Made by a program: the position numbers and the translations under genes | Notes under the pieces: model-generated | Databases searched by the model: none | What the model saw: only the letters and a program-made list of their open reading frames with translations | Told to the model about the DNA's origin: nothing | Shown: one piece after another, positions 24,998 through 32,815 of the stretch | Position numbering within the stretch: position 1 is the stretch's first letter | How the letters are laid out: each line of letters begins with the position of its first letter | Source: Deltaproteobacteria bacterium | Lineage (GTDB): Bacteria; Myxococcota_A; Polyangia; Polyangiales; JADJMO01 | NCBI GenBank assembly: GCA_016182965.1 | Contig: JACPFM010000002.1 | Location: 62,001 to 126,000, forward strand | Reading direction: 5' to 3' | Length of the DNA: 64,000 nt

Positions 24998-25177
24998 ATG
25001 GCGGAGAAGAAGGCCGAGCTGCTGACCGCGGGCAACATCGCCAAGGAGCTCGGGGTCGGCGACGCGAAGGTGAAGAAGGCGATCACCGAGCTCGGGCTGC
25101 AGCCCGACGCGAAGAAGGGCGCCTGCAGCTACTACGCGCGCGCGAACGTCGCGAAGATCAAGGCGGCGCTGAAGTAA
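24998..25177 (+). CDS. Small DNA-binding-like protein
   Basis: 59 aa. AELLTAGNIAKELGVGDAKVKKAITELG reads as a helix-turn-helix of the MerR/excisionase-like winged type, followed by LQPDAKKGACSYYARANVAKIKAAL, the expected wing and last helix. Similar short Lys/Ala-rich proteins occur in Myxococcota and other Deltaproteobacteria without known role. GAGGAGGTG upstream decides the ATG; TATGCT (24973) is a likely -10. It is convergent with the histidine kinase gene, whose 3' end overlaps it by about 20 bases. Confidence 0.75.
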   Translation: MAEKKAELLTAGNIAKELGVGDAKVKKAITELGLQPDAKKGACSYYARANVAKIKAALK

Positions 25178-26813
25178 CCGCGTCCGCGTTCGCGTCCCCG
25201 TTCGCGTCCGCGTTTGCGTTCGCGTTCGCGTTCGCGTTCGCGTTCGTGTGCGCGTTCGTGTGCGCGAGCGGCAGGTAGACCGAGAACTGCACGCCGTCGT
25301 CGGCGGCGTCGAGTTCGACGCGGCCGCCCATCGACGACAGGCCGTGCTGCACGACGAACAGGCCGAGGCCGGTGCCCTCGGCGCGCGTGGTGAAGAACGG
25401 CTCGAAGATGCGCCGGCCGGTCGCGGCGTCGATCGGATCGCCCTCGTTGTGGACGCGCAGACGGCACTCGCCCGCGGTCGGCGCCGCGTGGATGCGAATG
25501 CGCCCTCCGCGCGCGACGTGGTTCATCGCGTTGTCGACGAGGTTGAGGAGCACGCGACGCAGCGTGTCGCGGTCGGCGGTCACCCAGAGCGCCGGGTCGA
25601 CGACGGCCTCGGGCGCGCGGACCTCCGGGTGGACGCTGGACGCGGCGGCCACGACGTCGTCGACGACCTCGCGCAGCGAGACGGCCGTCGGATTCGTCTC
25701 GGTCGGGCGGGAGAACTGCAGCAGCTCGGCGACGACCCTGCGCAGCCTCGTCGCCTCCTCGCGGCTCGCGGCGAGCGCGGTGCGTCCCGCCTCGCTCAGC
25801 GTGCTCTCGTGCGCGATCGCGGCGAGCGCGACGGTGAGCACCGCCAGCGGGTGTCGGATCTCGTGCGCTACCACCGCGATGGTCTCGCCCATCGCCGCGA
25901 GGCGCTCTCGCCGCAACATCACCGATTGCAGGCGGGCGTTGCGGGCGATCGCGCCGAGCTGCGCCGCCAGGAGCTGGACGGCGACGAAGTCGTGATCGGT
26001 GAGATCGGCGCCCGCGACCGAGAGCACCGCGGCGATCGATCCCTCCGCCCAGATCGGGCACCAGATGCTGCGGCGCACGCGCGCCTCGGCCATGCTCCGG
26101 TCGAGGTCTGCGGCGAACTTCAGCGGCGCGTTCGCCGTCGACGGGAGGTTGTCGAGGAAGACGGCACGGCCGGTCTCGGCGACGTGGGTGGCGATCGGCG
26201 AGCTCTCGCGGTCGAGCCGTCGGCCGATGAGCGTTCGCCCGTACGCGGTGATCGGATCGTCCTCGCGCCCGAGCACGGAGATGGGCACGATCCGGCTCGC
26301 CTCGATCACGCTGTAGGCGACGGTCCAGCCGAGGTCGGCGAACGCTGGCTCGGCGCTCTTCAGGAAGGCGAGCACGTCGGGGCGGGCGCCGAAGGAGAGC
26401 TCCGCGAGCCGCCCGATGAGCGCCTCGGCGCGCGACGTCTCGGTCATGTCGCGCGCGGTGAGGACCAGCAGGTCACCGCTGCGCAAGGAGCGCAGATCGA
26501 CCAGCGCCTCGGCGCCGCTCGGACGCGCCAGGCGCACCCGGAACGTGACGGGGAGCGCCCACCCGGCCTCCTGCTGTCGCTCGATCTCGGTGAGGCGTCC
26601 AAGCTCTCCGGGGGCGAGGATCTCCGAAAGCGCCATCCCGATCAGCCGCTCGGACGGCGCGCCCATGAGCGCCGCGGCGCGCGCGTTCACCGCGGCGATG
26701 ACGCCGGCGCGGATCACGAAGACGGCCTCCGGCAGCTGGTCGACGCCGAGACGCCGCACGTCGCGTCGCAGGGCCCCACCTGCTCTCCGTCGTACTGCCT
26801 TCCGCCGTCTCAT
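25158..26813 (-). CDS. PAS-GAF sensor histidine kinase
   Basis: 551 aa, soluble. PAS at about 25-125 (QLPEAVFVIRAGVIAAVNA), GAF at about 140-290, HisKA with the phosphoacceptor H317 in VVAHEIRHPL, then HATPase with N428 (LVDNAMNH), NEGDP at 456-460 and GTGLGLF at 480-486. The last 35 residues are an Asn-Ala repeat (HTNAHTNANANANA...) encoded by the GCGAAC hexamer array, so the repeat has extended the ORF. No response regulator gene is adjacent; the STAS-like gene is divergent. The ATG at 26813 was chosen because upstream in-frame codons are Arg-rich without domain. Signal unknown. Confidence 0.9.
   Translation of the reverse strand: MRRRKAVRRRAGGALRRDVRRLGVDQLPEAVFVIRAGVIAAVNARAAALMGAPSERLIGMALSEILAPGELGRLTEIERQQEAGWALPVTFRVRLARPSGAEALVDLRSLRSGDLLVLTARDMTETSRAEALIGRLAELSFGARPDVLAFLKSAEPAFADLGWTVAYSVIEASRIVPISVLGREDDPITAYGRTLIGRRLDRESSPIATHVAETGRAVFLDNLPSTANAPLKFAADLDRSMAEARVRRSIWCPIWAEGSIAAVLSVAGADLTDHDFVAVQLLAAQLGAIARNARLQSVMLRRERLAAMGETIAVVAHEIRHPLAVLTVALAAIAHESTLSEAGRTALAASREEATRLRRVVAELLQFSRPTETNPTAVSLREVVDDVVAAASSVHPEVRAPEAVVDPALWVTADRDTLRRVLLNLVDNAMNHVARGGRIRIHAAPTAGECRLRVHNEGDPIDAATGRRIFEPFFTTRAEGTGLGLFVVQHGLSSMGGRVELDAADDGVQFSVYLPLAHTNAHTNANANANANANADANGDANADAVTSAPP
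25179..25264. repeat. GCGAAC-type hexamer array, site 3 (longest)
   Basis: About 14 units of (GCGTTC) with single changes, between the small HTH gene and the kinase core, and read as the C-terminus of the kinase on the minus strand. Confidence 0.85.
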
Positions 26814-27025
26814 CCCCGCCCCCGCAGCTCGAACGATGCCACGTCCGTCCTTCTTCCGCTCGGCCTCGCGTTCCGCAGACGAACGAGCGCGACACGGATG
26901 GCCTCCTCCCGGCCTCGGATCGAGACGTCGCGACGAGTGCGATCGCGCACGAACCCAACGTCGCACAGTCGCATCCAAACGCGCGTGCCGCGCGCGGAGC
27001 GCGGCGCGAGTGTCGAGGTCGAGCC

Positions 27026-27595
27026 TTGCGGTCTTCCCACACCCACGTAACCGAGCCGGTCGTACTCGCCGCGCGACCGGAGTTCTGCCTCGCCGCCGAT
27101 CGGGGCGCGGTGGTGGGAATCCATCGCGCACCCCTTCACGGCCCGCTGCTCAAGGCGATCCGCGAGGCCCTGCAGATCGCCGTCGACGCGCATCCCGCCG
27201 GGCTCGTCTGCCTCAGCGTCTTCCGGCTCTCGCGGCACTTCCCGCTCGACCCCGGCTTCGACAAGAACGTGCGCGAGCTCGCCGACACGCTGCGGGCCAT
27301 CGACCGCATGGTCATCGCCAACGCGACGCTCATCGAGTTCGGCGGCGTGCGCGCGGTGGCCATGCGCCTGGCGTCACGCGCGGTCATCAAGCTCGCGCGA
27401 CCGCGCGCCGAGATGGCCGACTTCGATCGGCTGACCGACGCCATCGCCTGGGTGCTCCCGTTCGCGAAGAGGGCCGGCGCACCGAGCGATCACATGAGCT
27501 GGGTGAAGCTCTACCGCCACGCCGAGCGGCACCTCCCCGACCTCGACGCCGTGTCGCACCCGGCGCACCCGGCGAAGGCGCGCACGGGCTCCTGA
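27026..27595 (+). CDS. STAS-like hypothetical protein
   Basis: Up to 189 aa. The core (about 30-150) has alternating strands and helices: GAVVGIHRAPL, GLVCLSVFRL, RMVIANATLIEFGGVRAVAMRL. The pattern recalls STAS/SpoIIAA-like proteins that are common in myxobacteria near sensor kinases. The start is unsure: no ATG lies before the core, and 27026 is a TTG. It is divergent from the PAS-GAF kinase with about 210 bp between, in which I see no clear promoter. Function unknown. Confidence 0.55.
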   Translation: MRSSHTHVTEPVVLAARPEFCLAADRGAVVGIHRAPLHGPLLKAIREALQIAVDAHPAGLVCLSVFRLSRHFPLDPGFDKNVRELADTLRAIDRMVIANATLIEFGGVRAVAMRLASRAVIKLARPRAEMADFDRLTDAIAWVLPFAKRAGAPSDHMSWVKLYRHAERHLPDLDAVSHPAHPAKARTGS

Positions 27596-28377: not shown

Positions 28378-29730
28378 ATGACCGACGCGCAGCAGCTCGA
28401 ATCCATGCGGCACCTCGGGTGGGCCGCCGTGAGCGCCGCGTTCGGGTCGCTCGGCCGCTTCTGCATGGCGCTCGACGGCGACTTCCGCGTGCTGCACACC
28501 TCCGAACGGCTCGATCAGCTGCTCGGCCACGGCGCGCGCGAGAGCATCACCGGCAAGCCGATCGCCGCGCTGCTCGGCAACGAGCTGTTCGGGCGCGACG
28601 GCGCGCTCCGGCAGAAGGTGGCCGCCGGCAGGAAGTGCGAGGGGTGGCGCGCCACCCTGCGGCTCGAGCCGGAGGGGTCGCGGCTCGTCAGCGTCACCGC
28701 GGCGCGCCTGATCCACGACGCGTACGGCGTGTGCGATCGCGAGGCCCACTACATCGTGGTCATCCGGCCCGCCGAGGAGGATCCGGCCGCCGCCGCGGGG
28801 CCGACCGCGCTCGGCGGCATGATCGCCCGCTCCTCGCCGATGCTCCGCATCGCGCGGCTGATCGAGCAGCTGCAGCAGGCCGACACGACGGTCCTGCTCA
28901 CCGGCGAGAGCGGGACCGGCAAGGAGGTCGTCGCCCGCGCGATCCACCAGCACTCCACGCGCCGCGACGGCCCGTTCGTCGCCGTCAACTGCGGCGCCTT
29001 GCCCGGCGAGCTGCTGGAGAGCGAGCTCTTCGGCCACGCGCGCGGCGCCTTCACCGGCTCCGTACGCGATCGCGTCGGCCGCTTCGAGCTCGCGTCCAAG
29101 GGCACGCTGTTCCTCGACGAGATCGGCGACATGCCGCTGCCGCTGCAGGTGAAGCTCTTGCGCGTGCTGCAGGAGCACACGTTCGAGCGCATCGGCGAGA
29201 ACGTGAGCCGCAAGTCGAACGCGCGCATCGTCGCGGCGACCAACGTCGATCTCGCGCGCGCCGTCGCGGTGGGGAGCTTCCGCGAGGATCTCTTCTATCG
29301 CCTGCGCGTCGTGCCGATCGAGATCCCGCCGCTGCGCAATCGGCGGGCGGACATCGAGCCGCTGACCGAGTACCTCCTCGCGCGCGTCGGCGCGCGCGGC
29401 GGTCGCGCGCTCCGCCTGTCACCCGACGCGGCGCGCGTGCTCTTGTCGTACGAGTGGCCGGGCAACGTGCGCGAGCTCGAGAACGCGCTCGAGTTCGCCG
29501 TCGCGGTGTGCGAGGGGCAGACGATCCACCCGGAGGACCTGCCGAAGGAGCTCACCGAGCGCGGCGCACCCCACGAAGACCCGACCGGCGCGGCCGCGGA
29601 GCTGGAACGAAAGAAGCTCCGGCGCGTGCTCGAGAAGCACCACTGGCGGCGCGACGAGGCCGCCGTGGAGCTCGGCATGAGCCGCACCACGCTGTGGCGG
29701 AAGATGCGGGAGCTCGGCGTCCGGCGCTGA
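28378..29730 (+). CDS. Sigma-54-dependent activator with N-terminal PAS
   Basis: 450 aa. A PAS-like sensor domain at about 20-130 (GRFCMALDGDFRVLHTSERLDQLLG) replaces a receiver domain. The AAA+ domain has Walker A GESGTGK at 176-182, the sigma-54-contacting loop GAFTGS at 223-228 and Walker B GTLFLDEIGD. A Fis-type HTH fills about 405-448 (EAAVELGMSRTTLWRKMRELG). It thus activates RpoN promoters in response to a signal bound or felt by the PAS domain, perhaps redox. The ATG at 28378 follows a poor leader, with TATCGT 12 nt before it. It ends 90 bp before the sulfur operon, whose promoter region has a sigma-54-like site, so that operon is the likely target. Confidence 0.93.
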   Translation: MTDAQQLESMRHLGWAAVSAAFGSLGRFCMALDGDFRVLHTSERLDQLLGHGARESITGKPIAALLGNELFGRDGALRQKVAAGRKCEGWRATLRLEPEGSRLVSVTAARLIHDAYGVCDREAHYIVVIRPAEEDPAAAAGPTALGGMIARSSPMLRIARLIEQLQQADTTVLLTGESGTGKEVVARAIHQHSTRRDGPFVAVNCGALPGELLESELFGHARGAFTGSVRDRVGRFELASKGTLFLDEIGDMPLPLQVKLLRVLQEHTFERIGENVSRKSNARIVAATNVDLARAVAVGSFREDLFYRLRVVPIEIPPLRNRRADIEPLTEYLLARVGARGGRALRLSPDAARVLLSYEWPGNVRELENALEFAVAVCEGQTIHPEDLPKELTERGAPHEDPTGAAAELERKKLRRVLEKHHWRRDEAAVELGMSRTTLWRKMRELGVRR

Positions 29731-29735
29731 TCGTC

Positions 29736-29756
29736 GTTTCGACGTTTTGTTGAAAC
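29736..29756. promoter_or_regulatory. Dyad GTTTCGAC-N5-GTTGAAAC
   Basis: Inverted repeat with one mismatch per 8-bp arm, just upstream of the putative sigma-54 site. Candidate binding site for the activator, or a transcription-end hairpin of the preceding gene. Confidence 0.5.
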
Positions 29757-29766
29757 ATCGGGCGTT

Positions 29767-29780
29767 GGAACACCGGTAGC
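29767..29780 (+). promoter_or_regulatory. Sigma-54-like -24/-12 promoter
   Basis: TGG at -24 and GC at -12 with ten bases between (GG 29767-29768, GC 29779-29780), the spacing of RpoN promoters. The -12 reads TAGC instead of TTGC. Predicted start near 29792, before the SQR-like gene. Confidence 0.55.
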
Positions 29781-29819
29781 CCCTGTGATTTCGGTCGCTT
29801 CCGCGCGTTCGGCCGGGGC

Positions 29820-31106
29820 ATGACCTCTGCAGTCCCCCTCCGCGTGCCCGCAACGGCGGCGCACATGGAGGTGACCTTGAAACGCATCGTGATCCTCGGA
29901 GCGGGGACGGCCGGAACGACCATGGCCAACAAGCTCGTGCAGCATCTGCCCGAGAACGAGTGGCAGATCACCGTCGTCGATCGCGACGACGTGCACGTCT
30001 ACCAGCCGGGGCTCTTGTTCATCCCGTTCGGCGGGTATCGCGAGAGCCAGATCCTGCGATCGCGCCGGGTGCTCTTCGATCCGCGCGTCGACGTGCGGCT
30101 CGAAGGCATCGCGCGCGTCGAGCCCGAGAAGAACCAGGTCGTCCTCGGTGACCACCACAAGCTGCACTACGACGTGCTCGTCGTCGCGACGGGGAGCCGC
30201 ATCCTGCCCGAGCAGACCCCCGGGCTGACCTGCGAGGGCTGGCGCAAGACGGCGTTCGACTTCTACACGGTCGAAGGGGCCAAGGCGCTCGGCGCCACGC
30301 TCGATGGCTTCAAGGGTGGCCGCTTCGTCCTCAACGTCGTCGAGATGCCGATCAAGTGCCCGGTCGCGCCGCTCGAGATGCTCTTCCTCGCCGACGCGTA
30401 CTTCACGCAGCGAGGCATTCGCGACAAGGTCGAGCTCGCCTACGCGACGCCGCTCAGCGCCGCGTTCACCAAGCCGATCGCCGCCTCGCGCCTCGGCGAC
30501 ATGCTCCAGAGGCGCGGCATCGAGGTCATCCCCGACTTCAACGCCTCGGAGGTCGTCGGCGAGAAGCGGCTCCTCAAGGCGTTCGACGGGCGCGAGGTGC
30601 CCTACGACCTGCTGGTCTCCATCCCGCTGCACTCCGGCGCGGAGGTCATCGCCAGCTCCGGGATGGCCGACGCCGGCGGGTGGTTCCCCACCCACAAGCA
30701 CACGCTGCAGAGCAAGGCGCACCGGAACGTGTTCGCGCTCGGCGACGCGACGGATCTGCCCTCGTCGAAGGCCGGCGCGGTCGCGCACTTCCAGGCCGAC
30801 GTGCTGCTCGAGAACATCCTCCGCTTCGTCGCCGGTCGGGAGCTCGAGCCCGCGTTCGACGGCCACGCGAACTGCTTCATCGAGACCGGTCACGGCAAGG
30901 CGATGCTGATCGACTTCAACTACGAGACCGAGCCGCTGCCCGGCCGCTTCCCGCTGCCCGGCGTCGGTCCCTTCACGCTGCTCGAAGAGAGCGCGGCCAA
31001 CCACTGGGGCAAGCTGGCCTTCAAGTGGGTGTACTGGAACCAGCTCCTGCGCGGCAAGGAGCTGCCCCTCGATCACCGCATGTCGATGGCGGGGAAGTGG
31101 AGCTGA
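29820..31106 (+). CDS. SQR-like FAD-dependent oxidoreductase
   Basis: 428 aa from the ATG at 29820 (a start at 29865 or the TTG at 29877 is also possible; GGAGGTG lies before the latter). FAD motif RIVILGAGTAGTTMA at 22-36. Three Cys, C138, C180 (MPIKCPVAP) and C352 (HANCFIETG), match the redox/substrate Cys of sulfide:quinone oxidoreductases. There are no membrane helices; SQRs bind the membrane peripherally. The family oxidises sulfide to polysulfide and passes electrons to quinone. Together with the DsrE- and TusE-type proteins downstream it probably feeds sulfane sulfur into a protein-bound relay. Flavocytochrome c or type-II NADH dehydrogenase are less likely given the Cys. Confidence 0.9.
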   Translation: MTSAVPLRVPATAAHMEVTLKRIVILGAGTAGTTMANKLVQHLPENEWQITVVDRDDVHVYQPGLLFIPFGGYRESQILRSRRVLFDPRVDVRLEGIARVEPEKNQVVLGDHHKLHYDVLVVATGSRILPEQTPGLTCEGWRKTAFDFYTVEGAKALGATLDGFKGGRFVLNVVEMPIKCPVAPLEMLFLADAYFTQRGIRDKVELAYATPLSAAFTKPIAASRLGDMLQRRGIEVIPDFNASEVVGEKRLLKAFDGREVPYDLLVSIPLHSGAEVIASSGMADAGGWFPTHKHTLQSKAHRNVFALGDATDLPSSKAGAVAHFQADVLLENILRFVAGRELEPAFDGHANCFIETGHGKAMLIDFNYETEPLPGRFPLPGVGPFTLLEESAANHWGKLAFKWVYWNQLLRGKELPLDHRMSMAGKWS

Positions 31107-31108
31107 GC

Positions 31109-32038
31109 ATGGCAACGGCGATGGATCTGGGCACCGCGAACGCGATTCTGACGAAGCTCGACCTCCTCTCCGTGGAGATCGCGCGCATCGGCGAGCGACA
31201 GCGGCAGACCGAGGAGCTGATCGAGGAGTTCACGCCCATCCTCAAGGAGGTGATGGCGACGGCGACCGATCGCCTCGATCACTTCGAGAAGAAGGGCTAC
31301 TTCGCCTTCGGCAAGGAGGCGCTGGGGCTCGTCGATCGCGTCGTCGAGGGCTTCTCGCCCGACGACGTCCGGCAGCTCGGCGACGCGGTGGTCTCCATCC
31401 TCGACACCGTGCGCGCGCTCACGCAGCCCGACGTGCTCGCCATCGCCGGCGAGGTCTCGCAGGTGCTGGTGCGCGCCGACGAAGCGAAGCCGATCGGGAT
31501 CGTCGGCATGATGCGCGCGACCCGCAACGACGACGTGCAGCGCGGCATGGCGGTGATGATGGAGCTGCTCAAGCACGTCGGGCGCGCCGCGTCGGCCGCG
31601 TCGAAGAGCAAGAAGCCGCGCGCGGTGGTTCGGCAATCGGCGCGGCTCGCGCTGCCCGCAGCGCCGACGAAGGTCGACAGGTCGGCGCCGAAGCGCGCCG
31701 CGGTCTGCACCCCGCGGAACGAGCCGGTGGTCGCCGCGACCGTGATCGACGGCGTCGCCTTCACCGCCGACGGTCACGTCGTCGATCCGAACGCGTGGAC
31801 CCGCGAGCTCGGCGAGAAGATCGCCAAGACGCAGGGTCTGCCGCTCGGCGAGGTGCAGTGGAAGATCATCGAGTTCGCGCGCAAGGAGTTCCTCGAGACC
31901 AAGGCGTCGCCGAACATCCGCCGCATCACCCAGGCGGTCGGGCTCTCCACCAAGGAGATCTACCTCCTCTTCCCCAAGGCCCCCGCGCGCACGGTCGCCA
32001 AGATCGCCGGCATCCCCAAGCCGGCCGGCTGCCTGTGA
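31109..32038 (+). CDS. DUF1641-TusE/DsrC fusion
   Basis: 309 aa. The N-terminal half (about 1-165) is helical and has the DUF1641 core (GLVDRVVEGFSPDDVRQLGDAV); DUF1641 proteins are commonly encoded beside SQR and formate-dehydrogenase-like genes. A Lys/Arg/Pro linker at about 165-205 is followed by a TusE/DsrC domain (about 208-309; DPNAWTRELGEKIAKTQGL, IRRITQAVGLSTKEIYLLFP). It ends GIPKPAGC308L, with the penultimate Cys of the family, while the second Cys of true DsrC, eleven residues earlier, is Ala. It is thus a one-Cys TusE-like sulfur carrier tied to DUF1641. The ATG is two bases after the SQR stop. Confidence 0.9.
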   Translation: MATAMDLGTANAILTKLDLLSVEIARIGERQRQTEELIEEFTPILKEVMATATDRLDHFEKKGYFAFGKEALGLVDRVVEGFSPDDVRQLGDAVVSILDTVRALTQPDVLAIAGEVSQVLVRADEAKPIGIVGMMRATRNDDVQRGMAVMMELLKHVGRAASAASKSKKPRAVVRQSARLALPAAPTKVDRSAPKRAAVCTPRNEPVVAATVIDGVAFTADGHVVDPNAWTRELGEKIAKTQGLPLGEVQWKIIEFARKEFLETKASPNIRRITQAVGLSTKEIYLLFPKAPARTVAKIAGIPKPAGCL

Positions 32039-32072
32039 GCCCATTCCCCTGACCGAGCCGGAGACGAAATCC

Positions 32073-32549
32073 ATGGACGCCATCGCACCCACCCAACGCA
32101 AGGTCGCGCTCATCTGCTCGCACGGCGGGCTCGACGAGGTCTACCCCTCGCTCATCCTCGCCAACGCCGCCCGGCAGTCCGACATCGAGGCGATGATCTT
32201 CTTCACCTTCTGGGGCCTCGACGCGATCACCGAGAACAAGATCGACGCCCTGCACGTCAACCTCGCCGGCAACGCGTCGAACACGATGCCGACCGTGATC
32301 GCCGGGCTGCCCGGCATGGAGTCGCTCGCCGCCTCGATGATGGGCAAGCAGATGCGCGAGCTCGACATCCCCGGGGTCCGCGAGATGATGGGCATCCTCG
32401 ACGAGTCCGGCGTCGAGCTCTACGCCTGCGAGCTCGCGATGAAGATGTTCAAGCGGGAGAAGAAGGACCTCATCCCGCAGGTCAAGGACGTCATCACCGC
32501 CGGCGACTTCTACGACCTGAGCGTCGGCGCGCAGATCATCTTCACATGA
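32073..32549 (+). CDS. DsrE/DrsH-like sulfur carrier
   Basis: 158 aa. The DsrE fold is visible as KVALICSHGGLDEVYPSLILANAA, AMIFFTFWGLDAIT and a C-terminal IPQVKDVITAGDFYDLS. The two Cys are C15 and C119; C119 in ELYACELAMKMF is at the position of the persulfide Cys of DsrE2-type proteins. It probably accepts sulfane sulfur and passes it to the TusE-type domain. Its stop overlaps the next gene by four bases (ATGA). Confidence 0.9.
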   Translation: MDAIAPTQRKVALICSHGGLDEVYPSLILANAARQSDIEAMIFFTFWGLDAITENKIDALHVNLAGNASNTMPTVIAGLPGMESLAASMMGKQMRELDIPGVREMMGILDESGVELYACELAMKMFKREKKDLIPQVKDVITAGDFYDLSVGAQIIFT

Positions 32550-32815
32550 CCCGCGAGTGGACCCCCGAGCGCGCCGACGCGGTGGCCGGGAGGCTGGGCC
32601 TGCGGCTCGGTCCCGATCACTGGCGGGTCATCGCCGGCGCGCGCGAGCTGTCCGTCGCGGCGGGAGGTCCCCTCGACCTGCAACACCTCGCGGCGCACGT
32701 CGCGATGTCGACGCAGGCGCTGTTCGCGCTGTTCCCCGCGCCGGTGCCGGAGACGCTCGCCGCGATCTCCGGCGTCGGGCTCGGCGCCTCGGTCTCGCGT
32801 CGGCGCGTCACCTGA
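32546..32815 (+). CDS. Cys-less DsrC/TusE homologue
   Basis: 89 aa. Aligns with the TusE/DsrC core: EWTPERADAVAGRLGLRLGPDHWRVIAGAREL, then LDLQHLAAHVAMSTQALFALFP. The C-terminal arm is shortened (SGVGLGASVSRRRVT) and the protein has no Cys at all, so it cannot carry sulfur. Cys-free DsrC homologues have been proposed to have regulatory roles; this could instead be a decaying duplicate, but the intact frame and the ATGA coupling to the DsrE gene argue for function. Last gene of the operon. Confidence 0.8.
   Translation: MTREWTPERADAVAGRLGLRLGPDHWRVIAGARELSVAAGGPLDLQHLAAHVAMSTQALFALFPAPVPETLAAISGVGLGASVSRRRVT

Follow-up and report, generated by a model that had tools for sequence, protein, structure and literature searches.

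Where does the sulfur go that a sulfide:quinone oxidoreductase (SQR) takes from sulfide in a bacterium without recognisable dsr or sox genes, and what governs the expression of such an enzyme? The question is raised by a five-gene locus at positions 28378-32815 of a 64,000-nucleotide stretch of a Deltaproteobacteria bacterium genome (assembly GCA_016182965.1, contig JACPFM010000002.1, positions 62,001 to 126,000), hereafter the window. The five genes lie on the + strand and encode a sigma-54 activator, an SQR, a fusion of DUF1641 with a TusE domain, a DsrE_2 protein and a DsrC homologue that has neither the C-terminal arm of its family nor any cysteine. A first-pass annotation of the letters alone had named these genes at these positions, and both the open reading frames and the family profile matches bear this out. 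We consider it rather probable that the locus is an operon in which a sulfide-oxidising SQR has dedicated protein carriers for its sulfur and a sulfur-responsive sigma-54 activator controls expression. The SQR gene is followed by the fusion gene after 2 bp and the fusion gene by the DsrE gene after 34 bp, and the DsrE gene and the last gene overlap by 4 bp. The close or overlapping spacing described earlier thus applies to these four genes but not to the activator gene, which ends 89 bp before the first in-frame ATG of the SQR frame and 146 bp before a TTG within it.

The flavoprotein at 29877..31106 (+) is a type III SQR in its cysteine form. It scores 605.9 bits against the NCBIfam model NF049943 (SQR_III_seleno), for which the curated cut-off is 525, and sulfide:quinone activity is predicted from this match. 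ATG 29820, the first in-frame ATG of the frame, is probably not the real start, because the NF049943 match begins at residue 21, fitting TTG 29877 (residue 20) behind GGAGGT. The cysteine numbers C138, C180 and C352 count from ATG 29820. C180 and C352 are cysteines in all 34 BLAST-selected homologues (more than 50% identity, window protein included), and both align with cysteines of the SQR chain 8dhk_A. Consistently, type III SQRs have been described as having two canonical catalytic cysteines (PMC13047784, partial text). C138, which had also been proposed as a relay residue, is a cysteine in the window protein alone (1/34) and drops out of the relay. A review table lists an HxxU motif for the NF049943 family (PMC13188914, partial text); the corresponding position of the window SQR is HANC352, with cysteine in place of selenocysteine (Sec), and it is cysteine in 34/34 homologues. 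A Sec form of the enzyme was considered and rejected: none of the 35 NF049943 matches listed carries an in-frame stop.

The gene at 31109..32038 (+) begins at ATG 31109, which confirms the earlier numbering of C308, the penultimate residue of its product. The protein consists of a helical domain (about residues 1-166), a flexible linker (about 167-205) and a DsrC/TusE fold (about 206-309). It matches DUF1641 (PF07849) with 51.3 bits against a cut-off of 21 and DsrC with 88.4 bits, and its TusE part scores 70.5 against the TIGR03342 cut-off of 53.5. C308 is a cysteine in 38/38 BLAST-selected homologues that reach the C-terminus (window included). An alignment of 29 fusions (A2) shows both Pfam domains in every row (PF07849 at E <= 0.001), no stops, and a penultimate cysteine throughout. 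The second cysteine of DsrC, 11 residues before the penultimate one, is missing in 27 of the 29 (Ala in 24, Ser in 2, Thr in 1), the window protein having Ala. This single-cysteine arrangement is the TusE pattern, which has been reported for organisms without DsrAB (PMC3397948, partial text). True DsrC is recognised by the second cysteine and by dsrAB; the window fusion has Ala at that position, and its genome holds no dsrA over cut-off. Two of the 29 fusions do hold a second cysteine at the DsrC CysB position, and these two may work like true DsrC.

An AlphaFold2 model built from the 29 sequences places helices within residues 2-166, assigns little confidence to residues 169-192 and 195-201, and gives the DsrC domain a predicted local distance difference test score (pLDDT) mostly above 90; the arrangement of the domains is not fixed, the predicted template-modelling score (pTM) being 0.40. 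All eight hits of a fold search at E <= 0.001 belong to the DsrC family, with TM-scores by target of 0.73-0.82, and the DUF1641 half gave no credible fold match at this threshold. The linker, aligned to window residues 167-205, varies from 27 to 68 residues and from 19 to 68% Pro+Ala among the 29 fusions.

The likely contribution of the DUF1641 half is indicated by its partners elsewhere. Menadione reduction by Bacillus subtilis ForC1 requires the DUF1641 subunit ForE1, which most likely serves menaquinone binding (PMC8808070, partial text). On a Halobaculum and a Haloarcula plasmid, TusA is followed by an SQR homologue and then, directly after it, by DUF1641; TusA also precedes an SQR homologue in Chlorohelix, where the stretch examined has no annotated DUF1641. 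By analogy, we take DUF1641 to be the partner of SQR on the quinone side, to which these bacteria have fused a sulfur carrier. A literature search covering few subscription journals returned no paper on DUF1641 together with DsrC and no description of an SQR-TusE-DsrE operon.

The product of the fourth gene (32073..32549, +) is a DsrE_2 family protein (PF13686, 102.8 bits) and a probable sulfurtransferase, with C119 as its active-site candidate. C119 is a cysteine in 36/36 BLAST-selected homologues (more than 45% identity, window included) and C15 in 27/36. The protein satisfies the broad PF13686 alone: against the DsrE2 family NF047629 it scores 83.9, with a cut-off of 210. Transfer in vitro has been reported from DsrE to DsrC, the reverse transfer not being detected (PMC3397948, partial text), and the direction from DsrE to TusE is therefore favoured here. 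The invariance of C180, C119 and C308 (34/34, 36/36 and 38/38 homologues) fits the earlier proposal that sulfur is relayed through them, and the relay remains a plausible interpretation of the sequences.

Conservation across relatives was set beforehand as a refutation test, and the gene order passed it. The comparison sample comprises 282 genomes drawn from the phylum. Of these, 48 match the fusion protein (E <= 0.001), 45 have a DsrC-family domain over cut-off and 33 have an SQR that passes the NF049943 cut-off. For 32 of these 33, the SQR gene is followed on its own strand, at a distance of 42-804 bp, by a DsrC-family match, and the contig of the remaining one (G251) ends within the fusion gene. 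A single DUF1641-TusE gene is present in 25 of the 33 (together they supply all but four rows of the 29-row alignment A2), and one further such gene is cut. Flanking genes were compared at 34 SQR loci, window included, which come from 30 of the 33 SQR genomes (without G012, G071 and G281) and from the loci of four named fusion-protein relatives in a contig database, all from Myxococcaceae, Myxococcales and Myxococcus metagenome-assembled genomes (MAGs). The order SQR, TusE, DsrE is found at 32/34 loci, the other two (L041, L061) ending before DsrE, and the arrangement is therefore more than chance. No other gene recurs in more than five of 33 clustered loci (L111 excluded), a count made with a crude gene caller that missed real genes, the window's activator and fusion included, and on several short stretches. 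One five-locus group of neighbours is the activators; another, on the opposite strand, was rejected as a conserved gene because it is an antisense shadow of the fusion gene. The conserved module is thus SQR, TusE with or without DUF1641, and DsrE. The activator and the Cys-less DsrC homologue do not belong to the conserved unit, the former standing by 7/34 SQR loci and the arm-less form being known from three cases.

The activator (28378..29730, +) has a PAS-AAA+-Fis layout and belongs to a sensor family linked to sulfur genes. It matches Sigma54_activat with 232.9 bits and HTH_8 with 48.4, and its PAS match of 16.5 bits lies below the cut-off of 22.6. A PAS fold is nevertheless predicted for the sensor domain (pLDDT 86.8, pTM 0.83; PAS structures are the top fold hits), and a Pfam PAS match at E <= 0.01 is obtained for 4/7 family members under each of two models. 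The genome has 68 sigma-54 activator matches including the window's, of which just one besides it spans the full length (residues 12-448, 58% identity, 511 bits); the runner-up reaches 311 bits and begins at residue 136, and all remaining matches begin at residue 71 or later. The full-length paralogue lies in a cluster on another contig (L070, G000:C139, 8606-15838, +) together with a PhsA-like molybdoenzyme, a ferredoxin, NrfD, a YeeE-like protein, a multihaem cytochrome and an arm-less DsrC. The PhsA-like protein reaches 476 bits where the PhsA cut-off is 694, with the 4Fe-4S ferredoxin subunit and NrfD alongside, and the YeeE/thiosulfate-transporter match is weak (30.4 bits vs 400).

A search with the PAS alignment gave 23 matches in 21/282 genomes, 21 of them strong (E <= 1.7e-17). 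Seventeen of the 21 strong members lie by sulfur clusters, six by an SQR operon, nine by a PhsABC-type cluster and two by the cytochrome of that cluster at a contig end; the MAG loci add one further SQR-linked case (L005). Among 20 aligned members, a cysteine pair is common to 11/14 single-PAS proteins, and a four-cysteine motif occurs in the extra PAS domain of the six two-PAS proteins, which suggests a thiol sensor for the family, though not for the window member. The extra N-terminal PAS domain with its conserved C-x5-C-x2-C-x3-C belongs to the activators of L005, L061, L064, L065, L112 and L114 and is absent from the window protein; the motif is a possible metal or Fe-S site. An Acinetobacter FisR without the regulatory cysteines of the Cupriavidus protein still mediates a sulfide response (PMC7315123, partial text). 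Upstream of the activator, on the - strand at 25158-27131, lies a PAS-GAF-HisKA-HATPase sensor kinase; nothing indicates that it is part of the operon.

A probable binding region for the activator lies between it and SQR (29736..29772, +), defined by the repeat TGNAAC/GTTNCA, which is enriched at activator-linked operons. TGAAACA (29751-29757) and TGGAACA (29766-29772) fit this repeat, and GTTTCGAC (29736-29743) is a near match. Per 250 bp before SQR or PhsA, the repeat occurs 3.5 times on average at 16 activator-linked loci, compared with 0.35 at 26 unlinked SQR loci and 0.26 in random windows (L048 had too little sequence and was excluded from the count). Two or more copies are present at 15/16 linked loci, the exception being the PhsA gene of this genome with one, vs 2/26 unlinked loci. 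The excess is the largest among the ranked one-gap five-base patterns, at twice the next; the repeat was first read by eye from the same linked regions, and the associated value of 3e-8 and the pattern ranking are descriptive, not independent tests.

The RpoN promoter proposed earlier is possible. A candidate site, GGGCATGACCTCTGCA (GG-N10-GC; 29816..29831, +), is positioned within the range seen for the stronger sites of relatives and is weak (10.7 bits); an alternative near 29766 has 7.8 bits, and the best match in the window falls within the activator gene. Sigma-54 weights were written from the consensus and the sites were tested against 200 first-order reshuffles. All 200 are beaten before PhsA at 8/9 loci, before SQR at 9/33 and before the cytochrome gene in none of 10 regions. 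Seven of the nine significant sites upstream of SQR have no adjacent activator. These strong sites (L043, L044, L049, L055, L056, L057 and L060) have neither the PAS activator nor the repeats nearby, and another activator therefore probably serves those seven operons. As to the claim that the activator controls the window operon, the sensor family goes along with two types of sulfur cluster and an upstream repeat is shared, but the operon's own RpoN site is weak; regulation by the adjacent activator is probably right.

The last gene (32546..32815, +) encodes the arm-less, Cys-less DsrC homologue. Its match to PF04358 is marginal (25.7 bits against 24.9) and ends at position 100 of 107, there is no C-terminal arm, and cysteines number zero. 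Single short arm-less forms occur three times among the 282 genomes (the window, G000:C139 and G196:C251), the G000:C139 form having cysteine elsewhere. All three, a small number from two genomes, sit in clusters with this PAS activator. The papers examined gave no published support for a DNA-binding or regulatory role of DsrC, and the term "DNA-binding" is absent from PMC3397948. In the window genome the search for DsrC-family proteins found the fusion, two arm-less proteins and nothing else; selenocysteine in the third of these matches was considered and rejected, the in-frame TGA being an ordinary stop read through by the search. A different form is seen in another genome, where a single open frame (L069, G179:C2, 6733-7539, -) carries two tandem DsrC domains, neither with a C-terminal penultimate cysteine and both with a cysteine near the DsrC CysB position.

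Acceptors of the sulfur are to be sought outside the operon. The first-pass annotation had found no dsrAB, sox or hdr genes nearby. Neither dsrA (best 36.2 bits vs 392.85) nor soxB (89.2 vs 550) exceeds its cut-off in the genome (91% complete), but for hdr there are four CCG (HdrB-like) domain matches on other contigs (C163, C96 and C83). No TusA exceeds its cut-off either, one match coming close (27.7 vs 28.6). Two candidates are present: MnmA, whose family is over cut-off in the genome with its gene not in the operon, and an unlinked Lactamase_B-Rhodanese fusion (L170, G000:C65, 1141-2193, -), by guess a persulfide dioxygenase (PDO). The metallo-beta-lactamase (MBL) part of the latter is 46% identical to the MBL protein beside a Paraburkholderia SQR homologue; that MBL protein, as a query, stays under all NCBIfam cut-offs (best GloB, 91.6 vs 200.8; Blh, 82.9 vs 625).

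From the gene content, gene order, invariant cysteines, domain fusion, repeats and activator-family neighbourhoods seen in the sequences, we infer a chemistry, a direction of transfer, a ligand, an acceptor and a use of the promoter as follows. SQR, with C180/C352 and flavin adenine dinucleotide, would oxidise sulfide and reduce quinone. DUF1641 would dock on the quinone side of SQR, as ForE does for Bacillus formate dehydrogenase, and carry the TusE domain on a disordered linker. C119 of DsrE would take the SQR-bound sulfane sulfur and pass a persulfide to C308 of TusE, which would deliver it to an acceptor encoded elsewhere, perhaps the MBL-rhodanese protein or MnmA. The PAS domain of the activator would respond to a reduced or sulfane sulfur signal, and the activator would bind the TGNAAC/GTTNCA repeats and drive the SQR operon, its one full-length paralogue doing likewise at the PhsABC-type cluster. 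More speculatively, and with rather low credence, the fusion may equip SQR with a swinging, tethered TusE, electrons leaving through DUF1641 on the quinone side and sulfur on TusE without glutathione, while the arm-less DsrC proteins would be regulatory partners, not relay parts, reporting the loading of the carrier to the activator.

Several observations weigh against an operon with tethered carriers under its own activator. DUF1641 and TusE are separate frames in G198 and G027, and the 42-118 bp spacing in G249, G012, G071, G046 and G281 leaves no room for DUF1641 (5/33); tethering is therefore not essential. The neighbours of the 33 SQR loci, as called and clustered crudely, include no conserved acceptor gene. 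No sigma-54 activator is found in the stretch examined at 27/34 SQR loci, so the module does not generally depend on this activator. Four strong family members (L101, L104, L109 and L113) are unplaced: the sequence on their 3' side stops after 2 to about 600 bp, and their 5' side shows neither cluster; the cut flank was recognised as their common feature after they had been seen. Two weak members (E 3e-9 and 9e-9) are by neither cluster in the sequence examined. The window activator lacks the PAS cysteine pair and, like those of L101 and L103, has neither cysteine arrangement. Lastly, the -24/-12 site at the promoter position of the window is unremarkable by itself, and the PhsA region of this genome misses significance (p 0.085).

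The promoter site, the absence of the activator from most SQR loci and the 146 bp gap to the likely SQR start would also fit an activator that is a mere neighbour with another target, the operon having a promoter of another kind. This reading is distinctly unlikely: sulfur clusters adjoin 17/21 strong members in various arrangements, the remaining four being truncated on the 3' side, and the repeats lie between activator and SQR. Ordinary sulfide detoxification is a rival for the relay itself: SQR would form a low-molecular-weight persulfide, the unlinked MBL-rhodanese protein would oxidise it to sulfite, and TusE and DsrE would be accessory sulfur buffers with no obligatory relay. SQR-PDO operons controlled by FisR are an established design for detoxification (PMC7315123, partial text), and the genome does have the Lactamase_B-Rhodanese protein with its likeness to the Paraburkholderia SQR neighbour. 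However, its gene is outside the operon, its identity as a persulfide dioxygenase is unsettled given the scores of the Paraburkholderia query, and TusE and DsrE are present in every uncut locus examined; we regard this explanation as unlikely.

The carriers could instead serve biosynthesis, C308 giving its sulfur to MnmA for 2-thiouridine in tRNA as in Escherichia coli. The single cysteine of the TusE type, an MnmA of the genome's own, the absence of a TusA over cut-off, one match being close to it, and the lack of any DsrC-family protein beyond the fusion and the two arm-less forms are in its favour. However, tRNA thiouridylation is near-universal and DsrC-family genes are present in just 45/282 genomes, so most relatives manage without them; moreover, the constant partner is SQR rather than a desulfurase. 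This explanation is very unlikely. An SQR with dedicated protein carriers under a sulfur-responsive activator would link three loose ends: the role of DUF1641 beside SQR, the destination of SQR sulfur where no dsr or sox is recognisable, and sulfide regulation in this phylum, probably Myxococcota. The recurrence of the fusion offers a testable hint of direct sulfur transfer from SQR to a protein carrier, and a sulfur regulon of two operons within one genome is predicted by the activator family and its repeat.

The operon is a variant of known SQR/sulfur-relay and FisR-like systems. Its SQR resembles the selenoprotein subtype of type III SQR (NF049943) in score, in the invariant cysteine pair and in the fit of HANC352 to HxxU, but it has cysteine, not Sec, and its relatives are followed by a DsrC-family domain in all but the one genome cut by a contig end. 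The DsrE-type protein and the DsrC fold with its penultimate cysteine recall the DsrE/DsrC and TusBCD/TusE relays, whereas here DsrF/H and TusB/C genes are absent from the operon, dsrA is not found over cut-off, and TusE is fused to DUF1641 and tied to SQR. As in the ForCE system of B. subtilis, a DUF1641 protein accompanies a quinone-reducing enzyme (PMC8808070, partial text), but the partner is SQR and the DUF1641 domain carries TusE. The haloarchaeal clusters likewise have DUF1641 directly after the SQR homologue and a carrier gene adjoining; their carrier, however, is TusA from a separate gene, and the SQR identity is about 37%. In the FisR-SQR-PDO operons of Cupriavidus and Acinetobacter a sigma-54 activator also stands beside the SQR operon (PMC7315123, partial text), and none is annotated in the four plasmid SQR stretches examined for this comparison. 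The likeness to FisR concerns domains and position: a regulatory domain, AAA+ and a Fis-type helix-turn-helix next to an SQR operon. In contrast to those operons, the sensor here is a PAS domain, and relay proteins take the place of PDO and TauE.

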